64,000 nucleotides of DNA from Ilumatobacter fluminis (GTDB lineage Bacteria > Actinomycetota > Acidimicrobiia > Acidimicrobiales > Ilumatobacteraceae). Shown here piece by piece: positions 1-34,256 of this stretch (positions are counted from its first letter, which is position 1; each line of letters opens with the position of its first letter). The translations under genes and the position numbers were made by a program. The stretch lies in assembly GCF_004364865.1 (NCBI RefSeq), contig NZ_SOAU01000001.1, forward strand, positions 2,046,001 to 2,110,000, written 5' to 3'. The notes below the pieces were generated by a model, which had not been told where the DNA came from, searched no databases, and was given only the letters and a program-made list of their open reading frames with translations.

Positions 1-1
1 G

Positions 2-334
2 GTCGACGAGGTGCCGATCGTGTCGTCGGTGCCCCAGCACCACAGCTACGACCGCCCGCTCGAGGCGCTCAGCCGAGCCGGCATCGATCACTACACGGCC
101 TTCTCCGGATCGTCGACCGGCGCGATGCTCGAAGCGGTGTCGGCCGGGCTCGGCGTCGCGATCCTTTCCGAGTCGTGGGTTGACGACAACATCGTCCCGT
201 GGCAGCGCGGCAACGAGCTCGCGCCCGTCGAACGGGTGCACCAGGTCGTGCGAGCCGCATCGGGGGAGCGACGGGAAGTCGCCGACGCACTCGTGGCGAC
301 ACTCGTCGCCGATCTCGACGAGCCGACCGCCTAG
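2..334 (+). CDS. LysR-type regulator, C-terminal fragment
   Basis: The reading frame is open from the left edge, so only the C-terminal 110 residues are present. The stretch GAMLEAVSAGLGVAILSES has the usual shape of the end of a LysR effector-binding domain, where a conserved glycine-rich segment (GLGVAIL) precedes the last strand. The DNA-binding helix-turn-helix would lie outside the window, so the family call rests on this fragment alone. The stop codon overlaps that of the convergent panC by 4 bp, leaving no room for a terminator between them. The target genes cannot be told from here. Confidence 0.6.
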   Translation, partial: VDEVPIVSSVPQHHSYDRPLEALSRAGIDHYTAFSGSSTGAMLEAVSAGLGVAILSESWVDDNIVPWQRGNELAPVERVHQVVRAASGERREVADALVATLVADLDEPTA

Positions 335-1179
335 CCCGCTTCGAGCGGCAGGTTGTCGATCAGGCGGACGTCGCCGAACCAGGCGGCCGTCAGCAACACG
401 CTGTGGTCGTCGGCCCGGTCGACGTCGCGCAGCGTCGCCGAGTCGACCAGTTCGACGTACTCGAGCCGAGCCCGGGGCTCCGCCTCGATCGAGGAGCGGA
501 CGAGGTCGATGAGCGACGAGGCGTCGGTGTCGCCGCGTTCGTACGCAGCGCGGCCGCTCTGCAACGAGCGGGACAACACGAGGGCTGCCGAACGATCGCG
601 ATCGGTGAGTCGGACGTTGCGGCTCGACAGTGCGAGCCCGTCGTGTTCGCGCACGATCGGCACGCCGACGATCTCGATGCCCATGTCGAGGTCGGCGACC
701 ATCCGGGTGATGATCGCGAGCTGTTGGAAGTCCTTCCGGCCGAACATCGCGACGTCGGGCTCGACGGCGCCGAACAGCTTGGTCACGACCGTCGTGACCC
801 CGCGGAAGTGACCGGGGCGCATCGGACCCTCGAGCCGATCGGCGAGATCGCCGGGTTCGACATGGGTCTGGAAGCCGTCCGGGTACATCACCGATGCCGT
901 CGGGGCGTAGACGGCTGCGACGCCCGCCGCCTCGCACTGGCGGACGTCGTCGTCGATCGGTCGCGGGTACGAGTCGAAGTCGGCCGACTGGTTGAACTGC
1001 AGCGGGTTGACGAAGATCGTGACGACGACGTCGTCGGCACGTTCGGCCGCCGCCCGCACCAACTCGAGATGTCCGGCGTGCAGCGCGCCCATCGTGGGGA
1101 CGACCCCGATGCGGCGACCGTCACGGCGTCGCGCCCGTGACCAGGCGCGCATCTCGTTCGGCGTCGTCAGGAGCTGCAT
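331..1179 (-). CDS. panC: Pantoate--beta-alanine ligase
   Basis: Cytoplasmic enzyme that joins pantoate and beta-alanine using ATP to make pantothenate, the precursor of coenzyme A. The 282 residues match the family length. Visible motifs are PTMGALHAGH (about 28-37, the HIGH-like nucleotide-binding signature), FVNPLQF (pantoate site), GRKDFQQLAI and the late LALSSRN (the KMSKS-equivalent loop). A TAGTCT box 6 nt before the ATG (1186-1191) and no Shine-Dalgarno suggest a leaderless mRNA. That box includes the stop codon of the upstream P1 peptidase on the same strand. panB and panD are not nearby. Coenzyme A synthesis continues with coaBC at 53.5 kb. Confidence 0.96.
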   Translation of the reverse strand: MQLLTTPNEMRAWSRARRRDGRRIGVVPTMGALHAGHLELVRAAAERADDVVVTIFVNPLQFNQSADFDSYPRPIDDDVRQCEAAGVAAVYAPTASVMYPDGFQTHVEPGDLADRLEGPMRPGHFRGVTTVVTKLFGAVEPDVAMFGRKDFQQLAIITRMVADLDMGIEIVGVPIVREHDGLALSSRNVRLTDRDRSAALVLSRSLQSGRAAYERGDTDASSLIDLVRSSIEAEPRARLEYVELVDSATLRDVDRADDHSVLLTAAWFGDVRLIDNLPLEAG

Positions 1180-1185
1180 GGGCGC

Positions 1186-1191
1186 AGACTA
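1186..1191 (-). promoter_or_regulatory. -10 box of panC, shared with a stop codon
   Basis: TAGTCT on the minus strand, 6 nt before the panC ATG. Its first three bases are the TAG stop of the preceding P1 peptidase gene. Confidence 0.55.
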
Positions 1192-2235
1192 GGGGCGCCG
1201 TGCGCCGGGGCACAGATCGAGGTACGCCGGTGCCGACCCGAGTGTCGTCGCGCTGACGACGGCGTCGACGCAGGCCAGGGCGAACACTTCCGCCGATGCC
1301 GCAGCGATCGCATTCAGGTACTGGACCCGCGACGTCGCGGTGCGGACGAGACCGTCGCTGTCGGTCGGCAGCGACCGGTCGGCGGTGGCGAGCGCGAAGA
1401 CGGCGTCGCCGTCGGTCAGTGCGTGCGCCGGACGGATCGCCCGTGCCAGCCCGTCGTGTGCCCCCATCGCGACACGGCCCGCCTCGGCGCGGTCGAGTGC
1501 CGCGTCCGTGGCGACCACGCCGATGGTGGTGTTGAGGGCCTGACGTTCGACCGTCTGCTCGTGCACCCAGGCCCGCCACGCGCGGCGATCGTCGGCCGTC
1601 GGCCGTCGGACCGCCGGGTGGTCGACCCACGGTGCTCCGGACCGTGGATCGACGGCGCAGCCGGCCGCGTTGACGACGGCGAGTGCACCGACCCTGATCG
1701 CGACGTCGCCGACGGTGACGATCGCGCATGCCATGCCGACACCACCCTGCAGGCCGCCGGCCCGTGCGCCGGTGCCTGCGCCGATCGATCCGCGACGCGA
1801 GGTTCGCTTCGCCGACCGCAGCGCTCGGGCGCCGAAGTCGGGTCCCGGCCGCGCGCCGAACCGGCCGCCCCGGCCGAGGTCGAAGACGACGGCGGTCGGC
1901 ACGACGGGCACCACGTGGGCCGGGTCGTCGCCGACCGGCACGCCGAGTCCGCGGGTCTCGAGCTCGGCCATCACGCCGTCCGCGGCGGACAAGCCGTAGG
2001 CGCTCCCGCCCGACAGGCACACGGCGTGCACCCGATCGACCAGGTTGCCGGGTGCGAGCGCATCGGTCTCGCGGGTGCCCGGGCCGCCGCCTCGGACGTC
2101 GACCGCGCACACGGCGCCCGCCGGGACGTGGACCACGGTGGTGCCCGTCTGCCAGCCCCGGCCCGTGCGCTGGTGGTGTCCGACGAGCACACCGTCGACG
2201 TCGGACAGGCTGCCTGGGTCGCGGGCGCTGCTCAC
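1189..2235 (-). CDS. P1 family peptidase (DmpA/BapA type, S58)
   Basis: Member of the self-processing N-terminal-nucleophile aminopeptidase family that includes DmpA (L-aminopeptidase/D-esterase) and beta-peptidyl aminopeptidases. The N-terminal part has the conserved DVRGGGPGTRETD and LSGGSAYGL blocks. The nucleophile motif NTTIGVVATDA lies at about 235-245, and autocleavage before Thr-236 would yield the two chains. The length of 348 aa is typical. There is no signal peptide, so it should be cytoplasmic. The physiological substrate cannot be read from sequence. The GTG start sits 6 nt after a TACCGT box, and the gene is divergent from the acyltransferase at 2259 with only 23 bp between start codons. 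Confidence 0.88.
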   Translation of the reverse strand: MSSARDPGSLSDVDGVLVGHHQRTGRGWQTGTTVVHVPAGAVCAVDVRGGGPGTRETDALAPGNLVDRVHAVCLSGGSAYGLSAADGVMAELETRGLGVPVGDDPAHVVPVVPTAVVFDLGRGGRFGARPGPDFGARALRSAKRTSRRGSIGAGTGARAGGLQGGVGMACAIVTVGDVAIRVGALAVVNAAGCAVDPRSGAPWVDHPAVRRPTADDRRAWRAWVHEQTVERQALNTTIGVVATDAALDRAEAGRVAMGAHDGLARAIRPAHALTDGDAVFALATADRSLPTDSDGLVRTATSRVQYLNAIAAASAEVFALACVDAVVSATTLGSAPAYLDLCPGARRP

Positions 2236-2241
2236 ACGACG

Positions 2242-2251
2242 ACGGTAGCGT
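2242..2251. promoter_or_regulatory. Divergent overlapping -10 boxes
   Basis: The sequence ACGGTAGCGT holds TACCGT on the minus strand (2242-2247, 6 nt before the GTG of the P1 peptidase) and TAGCGT on the plus strand (2246-2251, 7 nt before the ATG of the acyltransferase). The two hexamers share the central TA, so RNA polymerase could not occupy both at once. Inferred from spacing alone. Confidence 0.55.
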
Positions 2252-2258
2252 GCCGCCG

Positions 2259-2897
2259 ATGCGTCGTCCGCCTCCGCCCGACACCCTGTGGGTCCGCTAC
2301 GCGGGCCGGGCCAAGCTCGCCGTCGGCGAGGTGATCAATCGGGCCTACGACGTCACGAAGGAATGGGCGTCGATCGGTCCCGGCACCCGTCGGGCCGATC
2401 GTTTCGGTGCGTTCGGCGAGCGCAGCGTGATCTGCTTCCCGCCGACGACGATCATGAACGAGCACTACATCCGGATCGGCGACGACACGGTGATCGGTCC
2501 GCACGTGGCGCTGTCGGCCGGCATGGCGCCGGGGCAGACGTGCATCACCGACCCGGTCGTGTCGATCGGCGACCGGTGCCTGATCGGGCGGGGGAGCGGC
2601 ATCGTCGGCCATCTGTCGATCGAGATCGGCGACGACGTCTTTACCGGTCACTACGTGTACATCACCGACCAGAACCACGGCTACGCCGACCGCAACGTGC
2701 CCGTGTCGTTGCAGACGATGCCGGAACGCCCGGTGTCGATCGGGCGCGGTTCCTGGATCGGGCACGGTTCGGTGGTCTTGCCAGGCACCCAGATCGGGCG
2801 CAACGTCGTGATCGGTGCCAACAGTGTCGTGCGCGGCACCATCCCCGACTACTCGGTGGCAGCCGGGGTGCCGGCCAAGGTGATCAAGCGGTACTGA
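2259..2897 (+). CDS. Hexapeptide-repeat acyltransferase
   Basis: A 212-residue left-handed beta-helix acyltransferase of the maltose/galactoside/serine O-acetyltransferase fold. From about residue 70 on there are consecutive hexapeptide turns (IRIGDDTVIG, VSIGDRCLIG, IEIGDDVFTG, VSIGRGSWIG, IGRNVVIG), ending in the usual VAAGVPAKVIKRY tail. The conserved His is in TDQNHGY, where acceptor hydroxyls are normally activated. It probably moves an acetyl or acyl group from a CoA donor to a sugar or lipid-linked glycan. The acceptor is unknown and no sugar genes adjoin it. The ATG was chosen because TAGCGT lies 7 nt upstream; the frame also stays open further upstream, antisense to the P1 peptidase gene. 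Confidence 0.88.
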   Translation: MRRPPPPDTLWVRYAGRAKLAVGEVINRAYDVTKEWASIGPGTRRADRFGAFGERSVICFPPTTIMNEHYIRIGDDTVIGPHVALSAGMAPGQTCITDPVVSIGDRCLIGRGSGIVGHLSIEIGDDVFTGHYVYITDQNHGYADRNVPVSLQTMPERPVSIGRGSWIGHGSVVLPGTQIGRNVVIGANSVVRGTIPDYSVAAGVPAKVIKRY

Positions 2898-2906
2898 TCG
2901 GCGGAT

Positions 2907-3470
2907 TCAGCGAGACAGGTCGATCGGCGGGGCGCAGGTCGACATCTCGTTGTCGCCGGCGAAGGTCGCCAGGCGCTCGCTGATCGGCAGTTCGTCAACG
3001 GCGCTCTCGTAGAAGGCGCTGTTCTCGCCGGTCTCGCGGAGCGTGTCGGCGTAGGCCCGCCGGTCGTCGAGGTAGATGCGGTACTCCTCTTCCCACAGTG
3101 GGACGATGCCCTGGCCCTTCTCGTCGGTGGGCTCGACGGCGACGACGTCGTCGAGCATCTGCTCGAGGATGTCGGTCGACTCGTCGACGATCTCGGCGCG
3201 TCGGTAGATCAGTTCGGGGCCCGCCTGGTCGATGCGGGTGAGGTCGGCGAGCTGGATCCGTTCTTCGGTGGCCTCGAGGCAGATCGCCTCGGCCCGCTCG
3301 GCCCACGCCCGGTCGTCGATCCGGTTCACCGCTTCCTTCGACGCGAAGAACAGCGCCCAGATCCAGAACGCGGCGAACAGGGCGAGAATGACGAGCAGGA
3401 ACCCGCGCAGCCACGGGTTCGGGCGGCGTTCGTCGGCCTGCCGCTCGTCGGGGGTCACGGTTGCCGTCAT
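2907..3470 (-). CDS. Membrane-anchored protein of unknown function
   Basis: I do not recognise a family. After a charged N-terminus (about 25 residues, DERQADERRPNPWLR) there is one strongly hydrophobic segment (about 23-43, GFLLVILALFAAFWIWALFF), then about 140 polar, acidic residues predicted outside the membrane. Two cysteines (EAICLEA near the start of the soluble part and STCAPP near the end) could form a disulfide. A GTG at 3473 is an alternative start. I prefer the ATG because TAGCGT (3479-3484, minus) is then 8 nt upstream, in line with other genes here. It is convergent with the acyltransferase and divergent from the phosphatase gene. Confidence 0.72.
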   Translation of the reverse strand: MTATVTPDERQADERRPNPWLRGFLLVILALFAAFWIWALFFASKEAVNRIDDRAWAERAEAICLEATEERIQLADLTRIDQAGPELIYRRAEIVDESTDILEQMLDDVVAVEPTDEKGQGIVPLWEEEYRIYLDDRRAYADTLRETGENSAFYESAVDELPISERLATFAGDNEMSTCAPPIDLSR

Positions 3471-3478
3471 CACCCGTC

Positions 3479-3484
3479 ACGCTA
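3479..3484 (-). promoter_or_regulatory. -10 box, leaderless type
   Basis: TAGCGT on the minus strand, 8 nt before the ATG of the membrane-anchored protein. It favours that ATG over the GTG one codon upstream. Confidence 0.5.
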
Positions 3485-3499
3485 CCGACGAAGCGGCGG

Positions 3500-3505
3500 T
3501 ACGGT
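3500..3505 (+). promoter_or_regulatory. -10 box, leaderless type
   Basis: TACGGT, 8 nt before the ATG of the histidine phosphatase; no Shine-Dalgarno lies between. Confidence 0.5.
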
Positions 3506-3513
3506 CGTCGGCC

Positions 3514-4197
3514 ATGGAGATCGTCCTCGTCCGACACGGCCAACCGGAATGGGTACGCGACGGCCGCAACGTGGTCGACCCGCCGCTCACCCGACTCGGG
3601 CTCCGACAGGCCGACGCGATGGCCCGGCGGCTCGCCGACGAATCGTTCGACGCCGTGTTCGTGTCGCCGTTGCAGCGGGCGCGCCAGACCGCCTCGCCGC
3701 TCTACGAGCGTCTCGGCCGCGACGAGGTGATCGCCCCCTGGCTGGAGGAGATCCGCGACCCCGACTGGCACGGTGAGCCCGAGGAGATGGCGCAGCAGGC
3801 ATACCGTGAGCTGGGAGAACGTCCCGTCGCGCAGCGGTGGGACGGCCTGGTCGGCGGCGAGTCGATCCGCGAGTTCACCGACCGCATCCATCGTGGCGCC
3901 GACGAGTTCTTCGCAGCCTGTGGGGTTCGGCGGATCGACGGCGATCACGGCCTGCCGGTGTGGTCGATCGACGAACCCGATCAGCGGATCGTCCTCGTCG
4001 CCCACGTCGGTACCAACTCGATCACGATGGGACACCTCCTCGGGCTGACCCCGACGCCGTGGGAGTGGGACCGGTTCGTCATGGGACACGCGTCGGTCAG
4101 CCGGATCGAGGCGATGCCGGTCCACGACGGCTACACCTTCTGTCTCTCGTCACTGTCGAGCCTCGAACACGTCGACCCGGCCGACCGCACCCGGTAG
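3514..4197 (+). CDS. Histidine phosphatase family protein
   Basis: Phosphoglycerate-mutase-like phosphatase of 227 residues. The catalytic LVRHGQPEW motif (His-8) starts the protein. The second core arginine is in SPLQRARQTA, and the second histidine is in VAHVGTNS (about 170). This family transfers phosphate through a phospho-histidine. Many members act on sugar phosphates, nucleotides or other small substrates, and the substrate here cannot be named. The protein has no signal peptide. It stands alone with its own promoter, ahead of ctaA. A second, unrelated-by-position member of the family lies at 42507. Confidence 0.88.
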   Translation: MEIVLVRHGQPEWVRDGRNVVDPPLTRLGLRQADAMARRLADESFDAVFVSPLQRARQTASPLYERLGRDEVIAPWLEEIRDPDWHGEPEEMAQQAYRELGERPVAQRWDGLVGGESIREFTDRIHRGADEFFAACGVRRIDGDHGLPVWSIDEPDQRIVLVAHVGTNSITMGHLLGLTPTPWEWDRFVMGHASVSRIEAMPVHDGYTFCLSSLSSLEHVDPADRTR

Positions 4198-7337: not shown

Positions 7338-9489
<2,152 letters not shown>

Positions 9490-32183: not shown

Positions 32184-33455
32184 ATGCCACGAGATGGAAC
32201 CATCTCGAACGACTCGCCGGCCGAGTCGCCGATCGCTGCGGCGTTCGCGGTCGTGCGTGATTCGGATCCTGATGTGCTCGACAGCGATGAGCTGTCGGCG
32301 TATCTGGATGCGGTGTCCCAGGTTCGTGCCTGGTGCGACGCCCGTCAGGTGCGTGCCACACGCCGTCAACGACAGCTCGCTGCCGAAGGCCGGGCGACCC
32401 AACCTGAACACGCGTTGTCGAACCATGGCCGCCAGTCATCGAAAGACGCCAAGACGGCCGCGGAGCGCGAAGAAGTGTGCACCTCGATGCCCGTGTTCGA
32501 GGACGCCCTCGATCAGGGCACCGTCACGGCCGGCCACGTCGACGCCATCGCATCGGCGACCCGAAACCTCGACGAGGCAGAACGAGCCGAGTTCGTGGGC
32601 GAAGCAGAGAACCTGCTCGATGACGCCCACGACCAAGGTGTCGACCAGTTCGCGAAGAACTGCCGGGGCTTGGCCAAGAGCATCCGGGCACGACACAACG
32701 CCAGGGCCGCCGAAGACGAGCTGGAGCAGCAGCGCAAGCAGTCGAAGGTGACGCGCTGGGTCGACAAGGACACCGGGATGCACAAGACGTTGATCGAGTG
32801 CGACCCGGTCACCGACCGAGCGATTTGGGCGGCGATCCAGACCGCTCGAGGTCGGCTCCGGCGCCGCGACCAGCAGACCGGCGGCGCCCGCACGAGCTGG
32901 GACCGCCTCACGGTCGATGCCGTCGTCGACGCCGTCACGAACGGCCACGGCGCCAACGGCACCCTGGTCGTGCACGTCGGCCTCGACGGCCTGACCGACA
33001 CCATGAACGGATCGATGACCGCTGCGGTCGGGTTGTGCGAGACCGATTCGGGGGTGCCGGTGCCGATCTCGACCATGCGGCGCCTCGCCTGTGACGCCGA
33101 CATCATCCCGGTCGTGCTGGACGGCGACGGTGTCGCACTCGACCAAGGACGAGCCAAACGGCTTGCGACACCCGAGCAGCGCACCGCGATCGAAGCGATG
33201 CACGCCACGTGCGTCCACCCCGACTGTTCGGTGTCGATCGACGACTGCCGGATCCACCACACGACCCCATGGCAATACGGCGGCCGAACCGACCTCGCCG
33301 ACCTGGCCCCGGTCTGCGAGACCCACCACCACCTCGTCCACGAAGGCGGCTGGGAACTCACCATCGAACACGACCGCACCGCCACCTGGACCCGACCCGA
33401 CGGCACCATCTACTGGACCGGCCCCACCAACGACCGAACCCACCCCGCCGCCTGA
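32184..33455 (+). CDS. DUF222 / HNH endonuclease domain protein (13E12 repeat family)
   Basis: A 423-residue member of the actinobacterial DUF222-HNH family, known in mycobacteria as 13E12-repeat proteins and usually multicopy. DUF222 spans about 20-300 and is mostly helical. The C-terminal HNH site (about 345-395) reads CVHPDCSVSIDDCRIHHTTPW, then LAPVCETHHHLVHEGGW. The zinc cysteines and the HH/H catalytic set are intact, so it should be an active metal-dependent nuclease. Its biological role is unsettled. The strong Shine-Dalgarno, classical promoter, decayed toxin-antitoxin on the left and repeats on the right suggest an acquired segment. Confidence 0.9.
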   Translation: MPRDGTISNDSPAESPIAAAFAVVRDSDPDVLDSDELSAYLDAVSQVRAWCDARQVRATRRQRQLAAEGRATQPEHALSNHGRQSSKDAKTAAEREEVCTSMPVFEDALDQGTVTAGHVDAIASATRNLDEAERAEFVGEAENLLDDAHDQGVDQFAKNCRGLAKSIRARHNARAAEDELEQQRKQSKVTRWVDKDTGMHKTLIECDPVTDRAIWAAIQTARGRLRRRDQQTGGARTSWDRLTVDAVVDAVTNGHGANGTLVVHVGLDGLTDTMNGSMTAAVGLCETDSGVPVPISTMRRLACDADIIPVVLDGDGVALDQGRAKRLATPEQRTAIEAMHATCVHPDCSVSIDDCRIHHTTPWQYGGRTDLADLAPVCETHHHLVHEGGWELTIEHDRTATWTRPDGTIYWTGPTNDRTHPAA

Positions 33456-33471
33456 ACCCAGCCGCCAGCTA

Positions 33472-33759
33472 GCGCACCGGACCCGGGTCGGGTGATCTCC
33501 CAGAACGTCGACTCCGTCGCCGTCCCGTACGACACCCGACCCGAAGCAACCCGTGCCGTCCCGTACGACACCCGACCCGAAGCAACCCGTGCCGTTCGTA
33601 CGACAGCCAACCCGCGGGGTTGGTCGCCGATCCGGTCGGCGGCCGACCGGAGGTGACAAATACTGCGTCGACGGCTGTGGCTGGTGCGCGCACCGGGCTC
33701 GGGTCGGGTGATCTCCCAGAACGTCGACTCCGTCGCCGTCCCGTACGACACCCGACCCG
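33472..33759. repeat. Intergenic repeat region with palindromic 72-bp copies
   Basis: This region fills most of the 348-bp gap between the HNH gene and aroQ. A 72-bp direct repeat occurs at 33472-33543 and 33688-33759 with two mismatches seen. Each copy is bounded by the inverted pair GGGTCGGGTG / CACCCGACCC (33485-33494 and 33533-33542 in the first copy). A 36-bp unit is also tandemly duplicated at 33522-33557 and 33558-33593, with a degenerate third copy after it. No convincing gene lies here, although frames are open through the repeats. Confidence 0.85.
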
Positions 33760-33790
33760 GATGGTGGAGGGTCGTTCGCGCGCTCGCAGC

Positions 33791-33796
33791 TACGCT
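33791..33796 (+). promoter_or_regulatory. -10 box of aroQ
   Basis: TACGCT, 7 nt before the aroQ GTG; no Shine-Dalgarno. Confidence 0.5.
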
Positions 33797-33803
33797 CGGT
33801 GGC

Positions 33804-34256
33804 GTGGCTGACACAGCTGACACCCTCTTGCTCTTGCACGGCCCGAACCTGAACCTGTTGGGGGAGCGCGAGCCGCACATCTACGGCACCGACACCCTCG
33901 ACGACTACGTCGCGTTCGCGACCGCGTCCGCCGCCGAGCACGGGCTCGACGTCGAGGCCCATCAGTCCAACTTCGAAGGCGAACTGATCCAACACATCCA
34001 CGCAGCACGCAATCGTTGCGCGGCGATCGTGATCAACCCGGGAGCATTCACGCACTACGCCTGGGCGATCCACGACGCCCTCGCGGCGTTCGACGGCCCG
34101 ATCGTCGAGGTCCACATCTCGAACCCGAACTCACGCGAGCCGTGGCGACACACCAGCGTCGTCGCACCGGTGGCGACCGGTTCCATCACCGGGTTCGGCA
34201 AGCAGGGCTACGACCTGGCGGTCCGGGCGGTCGCCGCATCGTTGGCAGCCCGATGA
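33804..34256 (+). CDS. aroQ: Type II 3-dehydroquinate dehydratase
   Basis: Dehydrates 3-dehydroquinate to 3-dehydroshikimate, third step of the shikimate pathway. The 150 residues show [20 protein letters not shown] with the catalytic Tyr, [27 protein letters not shown] and [15 protein letters not shown] with the catalytic His region. All are type II signatures (dodecameric, no Schiff base). The GTG start follows the -10 box by 7 nt; upstream in-frame ATGs lie inside the repeat region and were rejected. It leads aroQ-pepQ-efp-nusB. Confidence 0.96.

Follow-up and report, generated by a model that had tools for sequence, protein, structure and literature searches.

Paired hairpin repeats dispersed in the genome of Ilumatobacter fluminis and their probable spread by a RAYT-like Y1 transposase

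Two near-identical palindromic repeats between an HNH gene and an aroQ-like gene of Ilumatobacter fluminis belong to a large population of units with a predicted hairpin fold, which are probably REP/REPIN-type non-autonomous mobile elements spread by a RAYT of the TIRYT type; we put the probability of this reading at roughly 0.73. The locus was analysed within a stretch of 64,000 nucleotides, hereafter the window, which corresponds to C1:2046001-2110000 of the genome, a single contig (C1) of 4,775,416 bp.

Results

The repeat locus in the window

The two copies of 72 nt (33472-33543 and 33688-33759) lie between the HNH gene and the aroQ-like gene, both of which are encoded on the plus strand. 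As the sequence-only reading had noted, they are nearly identical (97%, 2 mismatches), start 216 bp apart and are bounded by palindrome arms: each consists of a 58-nt unit, identical in both copies, that ends in GGGTCGGGTG / CACCCGACCC, and of 13-14 bp of flanking sequence. A 36-bp tandem duplication had been placed inside each copy. This tandem repeat exists (TRF 33514-33614, 2.8 copies), but it begins within copy 1 and extends downstream as an extra 3' half-unit, while copy 2 lacks it. A promoter had also been proposed just after copy 2 for the downstream gene, which we, like the sequence-only reading, take to be aroQ-like; a consensus scan for promoters of the sigma-70 type found no site between 33400 and 33900. 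Throughout the 64-kb window, CACCCGACCC with at most one mismatch occurs 33 times versus a mean of 16.9 in shuffled sequence, and none of 100 shuffles reached 33.

The flank of the window copies contains the word GCGCACC, which is also present, on either strand, in 26 of 49 mirror-pair spacers elsewhere in the genome. Among the sampled units, those in the window are the sole same-strand neighbours less than 400 bp apart (158 bp), and the nearest other unit, C1:4133559, is one change away. The identity of the two window units, as against one difference from this nearest other unit, makes it likely that they arose by local duplication. They do not form a mirror pair, and in view of the missing partner, the local direct duplication and the expansion of the half-unit, both copies seem to be relics, which probably serve no function tied to HNH or aroQ.

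Table 1. Features of the repeat locus (window coordinates) and HNH homologues with a unit within 1 kb (C1 coordinates)
Feature	Position	Strand	Basis or nearest unit
HNH-domain protein, 423 aa, neighbour outside the element	32184..33455	+	29 bp upstream of unit 1; F1 unit at 33 bp in the 1-kb count
Unit 1 left flank (GCGCACCGGACCC), probable spacer remnant from a lost mirror pair	33472..33484	+	GCGCACC word; probable relic
REP-like unit 1, family F1, 58 nt	33485..33542	+	Pattern scan, predicted fold (complementary strand)
3' half-unit, 36 bp, first copy, overlapping unit 1	33519..33554	+	TRF
3' half-unit, 36 bp, exact tandem copy	33555..33590	+	TRF; matches beside other units in the genome
Third half-unit, degenerate	33591..33614	+	TRF
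Unit 2 left flank, unit 1 remnant with 2 changes	33688..33700	+	Sequence comparison
REP-like unit 2, family F1, identical to unit 1, same orientation	33701..33758	+	Sequence comparison
aroQ-like gene (presumed), neighbour outside the element	33804..34256	+	45 bp downstream of unit 2; GTG start (33804) picked by inspection, longest ORF starts at 33684 within the repeat region
HNH homologue	C1:830901		F2 unit, 320 bp
HNH homologue	C1:2924251		Degenerate F1 unit (2925568), 133 bp
HNH homologue	C1:2345129		F1 62-nt unit C1:2344245-2344306, 823 bp upstream of the matched part

Two families of units populate the genome

The genome search that the sequence-only reading had proposed for the 58-bp unit did return copies elsewhere. 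In 331 kb of sampled stretches from the 4.78-Mb genome, a pattern scan identified 163 full units, about 161 of them credible; the matches at 1095960 and 2425149 are 31 and 34 changes away from every consensus and are likely due to chance. The units fall into two families, F1, the family of the window, with the arms GGGTCGGGTG/CACCCGACCC, and F2 with the arms GGGTCAGGTG/CACCTGACCC. Leaving out the chance hits, F1 comprises units of 58 nt (n=58), 62 nt (n=40) and 64 nt (n=2), and F2 units of 64 nt (n=34), 58 nt (n=25), 62 nt (n=1) and 63 nt (n=1). Searches of the genome, half-units included, yielded at least 84 matches for the window unit (40 of 149 candidates scored), at least 66 for an F2 64-mer (40 of 76) and at least 97 for an F1 62-mer (40 of 123), which are lower bounds because 40 candidates were scored per search. 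The word CACCCGACCCG occurs 252 times (127 + 125) in the whole genome versus 4 times for its reversed, non-complemented control.

Of the 108 sampled clusters, a number that includes one chance hit, 87 lie mostly outside the crude gene calls made with a home-made GC-frame rule; arm-based clusters also take in chance arm pairs within genes. By the same crude calls, the neighbouring genes of the 84 callable clusters are co-directional in 44 cases, convergent in 34 and divergent in 6. Like REPs, which are imperfect palindromes of about 20-65 nt, the units are imperfect palindromes of high copy number and mainly extragenic location. An F1 pair at C1:460635-461184 is followed by six more copies of the 3' arm at a spacing of 43 bp, and in the arrays examined visually, half-units are located beyond the 5' end of the folded strand.

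The sequence-only reading had considered a nuclease recognition region and had asked whether copies accompany DUF222-HNH genes. The window HNH protein matches Pfam HNH with an E of 0.0083, below the cut-off; it has no DUF222 match and reaches no Pfam cut-off. It is 33-34% identical to several PF02720 genes of the genome and 80% to one paralogue, and on these identities we regard it as a diverged branch. An element linked to such genes, in which a DUF222-HNH nuclease would cut or mobilise the repeat or reside at it, gains from the presence of a unit within 1 kb of 4 of the 17 HNH homologues in the genome, versus a mean of 0.96 upon rotation (P 0.018) and of 0.55 upon local shifts (P 0.003); the chance hit 2425149, which lies 549 bp away from the HNH match 2425755, was left out of this count. 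Once the window gene, which had prompted the question, is removed, 3 of 16 homologues are left (P 0.054 by rotation, 0.014 by local shifts), and once unit 2925568, sampled only via its HNH locus, is removed as well, 2 of 16 (0.86 expected by rotation, P 0.21; P 0.08 by local shifts). A fifth homologue has an F2 match at 1.86 kb, and the other 12 have no known unit within 2 kb. Moreover, only 4 of the 108 sampled clusters have an HNH gene next to them, and 43.6 kb separate the most similar paralogue (80% identity) from its nearest known unit. The association of repeats and HNH genes is thus weak and unproven, a dependence of the former on the latter is unlikely, and an HNH-linked element is barely credible; the mild excess may mean that both slightly favour the same intergenic regions. 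The unit C1:2344245-2344306 lies in the same long open frame as its HNH homologue or just before the gene start.

Both families share a predicted hairpin with a favoured strand

F1 and F2 units are predicted to adopt the same two-stem hairpin, whose consensus fold runs from an outer stem of 10 bp past a bulged A, 2 bp and a 3x3 internal loop to a stem of 7 bp and an apical hairpin. Covariation is present in an alignment of 47 of the 53 distinct 58-mers: 95.5% of the cells are paired versus 89.7 in shuffled alignments, the covariation score is 0.197 versus 0.097, and 51 cells are changed on both sides versus 14.7, a value attained in 0 of 500 shuffles (slid structures 0-6), in a control that ignores relatedness and with many of the covarying cells stemming from F1 versus F2. 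The numbers of base pairs with both sides changed (6 versus 4.7, 88 of 500 shuffles as high) and of further pair types (18 versus 16.0, 30 of 500) are not unusual. The telling changes are U-A to C-G at columns 11/47, G-C to C-G at 16/42, G-U to U-A at 18/40 and G-C to A-U at 6/53, while the apical pairs 25/33 and 26/32 fail in about one third of the rows.

Over the 163 units in their written orientation, A.C mismatches (218) by far outnumber G.T mismatches (30), which points to G.T wobbles on the complementary strand. Folding predictions favour this strand by 4 to 11 kcal/mol as RNA (four sequences) and by 4 to 6 kcal/mol as DNA (three sequences, one of whose DNA minima departs from the consensus fold). 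The wobble is found at columns 18/40 in F1 and at 19/39 in F2, and this difference argues against one inherited change.

The asymmetry of the wobbles would also agree with a hairpin formed by RNA, that is, a transcriptional element in which the units act as 3'-end terminators or mRNA stabilisers and selection explains both folding and location. The position of most clusters outside the called genes and the rarity of divergent settings relative to convergent ones agree with this as well. Against it, no terminator-like site was found in 33400-33900 and no Rfam match at E≤1 in 33300-33900, a mirror pair should form hairpins on either transcript, and 7 of 15 comparable sites lack the unit in a sister genome (see below). 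We consider an RNA element unlikely as the origin of the repeats; any RNA role may have been taken on later by copies already in place, without having driven their dispersal.

Units form mirror pairs

All 53 neighbours less than 150 bp apart are in opposite orientation with a short spacer, the arrangement of BIMEs and REPINs: 49 face each other with their 5' ends (head-facing), 4 are tail-facing and none are on the same strand. Head-facing F1 pairs mostly combine a 58- and a 62-nt unit across a spacer of 15-29 bp (about 20), and head-facing F2 pairs mostly a 58- and a 64-nt unit across 53-56 bp, with two pairs of 64 + 64 nt. At the 98 outer ends of the 49 pairs, no conserved GT[AG]G was found 5' of the foot; outside the 5' foot of the folded strand, 95 of these ends carry a C at the first position, followed by weak preferences.

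With their inverted outer ends, a length of about 135-185 bp and dispersed copies, the mirror pairs could each be regarded as one classical MITE whose mobilising DDE transposase duplicates the target site, in which case a DDE transposase with ends matching CGGGTCGGGTG would be expected. However, the 49 pairs showed no excess of target-site duplications over shuffled flanks (k 2-6, offsets 0-2), in a test that misses the true edge where half-units lie outside the pair. Y1 enzymes are expected to make no such duplications, and the result is as expected for them. Furthermore, each half alone is a hairpin with covariation, single units and half-unit arrays occur, and related units flank a Y1 gene, all of which makes the MITE very unlikely.

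F2 units flank a RAYT-like gene

The genome contains one match to PF01797 (Y1_Tnp) at E≤0.001, a RAYT-like protein of 272 aa (frame C1:4552074-4552889) with the motifs NHYH and YVALNP, which matches NCBIfam REP_Tyr_transpos with an E of 2.4e-14, below the cut-off of that model. An F2 unit on the minus strand ends 54 bp before the gene and another on the plus strand overlaps its 3' end, so that both stand in the orientation of a mirror pair with the gene as spacer; half-units lie outside both. Judged by its Y motif, the protein appears nearest to subclass 2.1 or 2.3, and 2.3 seems nearly as close as 2.1; the motifs of subclass 2.3 are NHYH and YVDLNP (accessible part of PMC6006769). Subclass 2.1 is marked by the HUH motif NH[YF]H, a Y motif with LNP and a C-terminal HTH domain. 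No HTH domain was detected in the protein at E≤1, and Bac_DnaA_C matches only dnaA in the genome. The downstream F2 unit (GGGGTCAG) fits GGGGWSAS, while neither the upstream unit (CGGGTCAG) nor F1 (GGGTCGGG) does. Further downstream, two stretches (approximately C1:4553092-4553929 and 4555034-4555871) are 82% identical DNA in tandem, and the F1 pair 4554777-4554924 sits between them.

A cognate Y1 gene flanked by its own family was found for F2 only. No F1-flanked transposase gene was found in the 41 genomes searched, of which, the own genome included, 3 carry F1 (own, G003 and G004) and 11 a Y1 match, with several of these genes bounded by other palindromes. The RAYT-like genes visible in G003 and G004 share 34% identity with the RAYT of the own genome. 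F2-like matches occur in G003, G004 and G005 among the matches listed, and a wider contig scan, which may leave out the own genome, placed 34 of 66 stretches in these three genomes and the other 32 as single matches in scattered genomes. A search with protein patterns for relatives of the RAYT in the named genomes found none. At the orthologous RAYT locus, contig C11 of G004 ends and contig C259 of G003 starts in such repeats, hence a RAYT may be unassembled there. We infer that F1 is also moved by this RAYT or by a relative now lost or unassembled.

The Y1 genes in G003, G001, G002 and G021 have their own, different palindromes around or near them, several with GGTCAGGCACC or GGTGCCAGGCACC. 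At G004:C46:18473-19114, long palindromes that contain GGTCAGACCCCAACCGAC bound a RAYT-like gene that is interrupted by a single internal TAG stop.

Occupied sites differ in a sister genome

In 362 kb of G004, 15 occupied loci of the own genome could be aligned with both flanks in order, in contigs mostly chosen as unit carriers, so that the sample leans that way. Seven sites (60560, 68320, 70109, 80728, 440067, 3336389 and 4570680) have no arm in G004, two have one arm in a large interval and six are shared. No base-exact empty sites were obtained, as the G004 intervals consist of replaced, diverged intergenic DNA, which makes loss indistinguishable from gain; the alignments at 80728, 440067 and 4570680 are misplaced and show little. 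By eye, the G004 interval around 8371-8484, orthologous to the F1 pair 68199, contains another inverted repeat, GATGGTGTCGGA / TCCGACACCATC. The proposal of a small non-autonomous element in the sequence-only reading is supported by the dispersed copies, by presence and absence between sister genomes and by the related units around the Y1 gene.

Pair polarity differs between replichores

Since the two units of a pair can be told apart, we scored which unit type lies on the left of each head-facing pair, for F1 by the stem-2 pair, a rule chosen after the data had been seen, and for F2 by length; 2 of the 49 pairs were unscorable. With dnaA at C1:4680926 and the terminus taken as the point opposite, the polarity is 22:0 on the clockwise replichore and 10:15 on the other (P 4.6e-6), and thus 37 of the 47 scorable pairs agree with the direction of replication, while 10 of 25 on the counter-replichore carry the other polarity. 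Taken alone, F1 gives 13:0 versus 6:12 and F2 9:0 versus 4:3 (P 0.06). The difference persists when neighbours within 10 kb are collapsed (14:0 versus 7:12, P 1.6e-4) and when polarity is scored by unit length alone (20:2 versus 9:16, P 2.0e-4). All 16 clockwise pairs with a callable gene context are of the L type, in ++, --, +- and -+ settings, hence gene direction is not an obvious cause of the polarity. Contig coordinate 0 was rejected as the origin, as no dnaA was recognised among the ORFs of positions 1-4000 and dnaA lies at 4.68 Mb; tabulated from coordinate 0, the polarity is 21:0 versus 11:15.

Single units do not show a replichore bias in the sense of the pairs, and F1 singles lean the opposite way: with respect to the folded strand, leading:lagging template counts are 15:7 for the G-type and 3:9 for the C-type (Fisher P 0.03).

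The units might instead be passive sequence, a protein-binding or chromosome-organisation motif spread by recombination with no transposase. E. coli BIMEs with gyrase or nucleoid proteins offer a parallel. Such a motif would suit both the difference in polarity between replichores and the concentration of sampled clusters around dnaA (62 of 108 at most 0.6 Mb away versus 27 expected), an excess that is inflated because the sampling favours low coordinates. It leaves the F2 units around the RAYT gene, the same fold in two families and the turnover in the sister genome unexplained, and we regard it as highly improbable.

Discussion

Spread by a TIRYT-type RAYT as REP/REPIN-type elements remains our preferred reading of the repeats. 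One strand of each 58-64 nt unit would fold into the two-stem hairpin, and the usual paired copy would consist of two mirror-oriented units with a spacer of about 20 bp in F1 and about 55 bp in F2. A Y1 transposase (HUH, single tyrosine) of the RAYT/TIRYT kind would recognise the hairpin while the DNA is single-stranded, with the lagging-strand template as the most likely place, and would move or copy the pair into intergenic sites; movement probably proceeds via single-stranded DNA.

The population resembles REP/BIME/REPIN sequences and their RAYT (TnpAREP) in its high-copy, mainly intergenic imperfect palindromes, in the mirror pairs of two unit types and in the single Y1 gene flanked by related units. 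It differs in the 58-64 nt length of the units, the bulged two-stem hairpin and the lack of GT[AG]G at the foot, and, unlike in RAYT systems, no transposase of its own is visible for F1. PMC3733652 describes GTAG REPs, dimers and TIRtrons, and the present host is outside the phyla that the accessible part of this paper names for GTAG repeats.

A second likeness is to the TIRtrons/TIRYT of PMC3733652 (subclass 2.1 of PMC6006769, both as far as accessible): a Y1 gene between inverted repeats, one of which overlaps its 3' end, with NHYH and Y..LNP-type motifs and a downstream unit that fits GGGGWSAS. In contrast to TIRtrons, the upstream unit and F1 depart from GGGGWSAS and no HTH domain was detected. 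According to the accessible part of PMC3733652, TIR repeats can occur as dimers or in clusters and can make up families of moderate abundance, while the accessible part of PMC6006769 states that REP-like sequences were not found near subclass 2.1 and 2.3 genes. Here, by contrast, the flanking units belong to a family with at least 66 matches in the genome. IS200/IS605 elements likewise combine a Y1 HUH enzyme with hairpins, and lagging-strand targeting is a known habit of theirs (PMC6006769, accessible part); they differ from the present case, in which the genome has one PF01797 match and the dispersed unit is non-coding and paired. For P. fluorescens, the accessible part of PMC3116915 reports tandem REP arrays whose orientation on one side of the genome is opposite to that on the other, hence orientation by chromosome half had already been noted for arrays.

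More tentatively, a TIRYT-type (subclass 2.1-like) Y1 transposase might have made both mirror-pair populations in this actinobacterium, with one defined strand moving from or into the lagging-strand template and pair polarity as a record of replication direction. Our literature search found no such repeats in Ilumatobacter or other Actinobacteria, a weak negative since most subscription literature was outside its scope. The accessible part of PMC6006769 reports that the sampled high-GC Actinobacteridae carry only Y1 genes of subclass 1.1, a count that probably does not include Acidimicrobiia.

If true, our reading would bear on these statements about Y1 subclasses in Actinobacteridae and about the absence of REPs with subclass 2.1, as made in the accessible part of PMC6006769, and REPIN-like dispersal would reach beyond the GTAG-type RAYTs. 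As the two units of a pair can be told apart, strand use can be read off the sequence alone, and the coupling of REPIN movement to replication would become directly testable.
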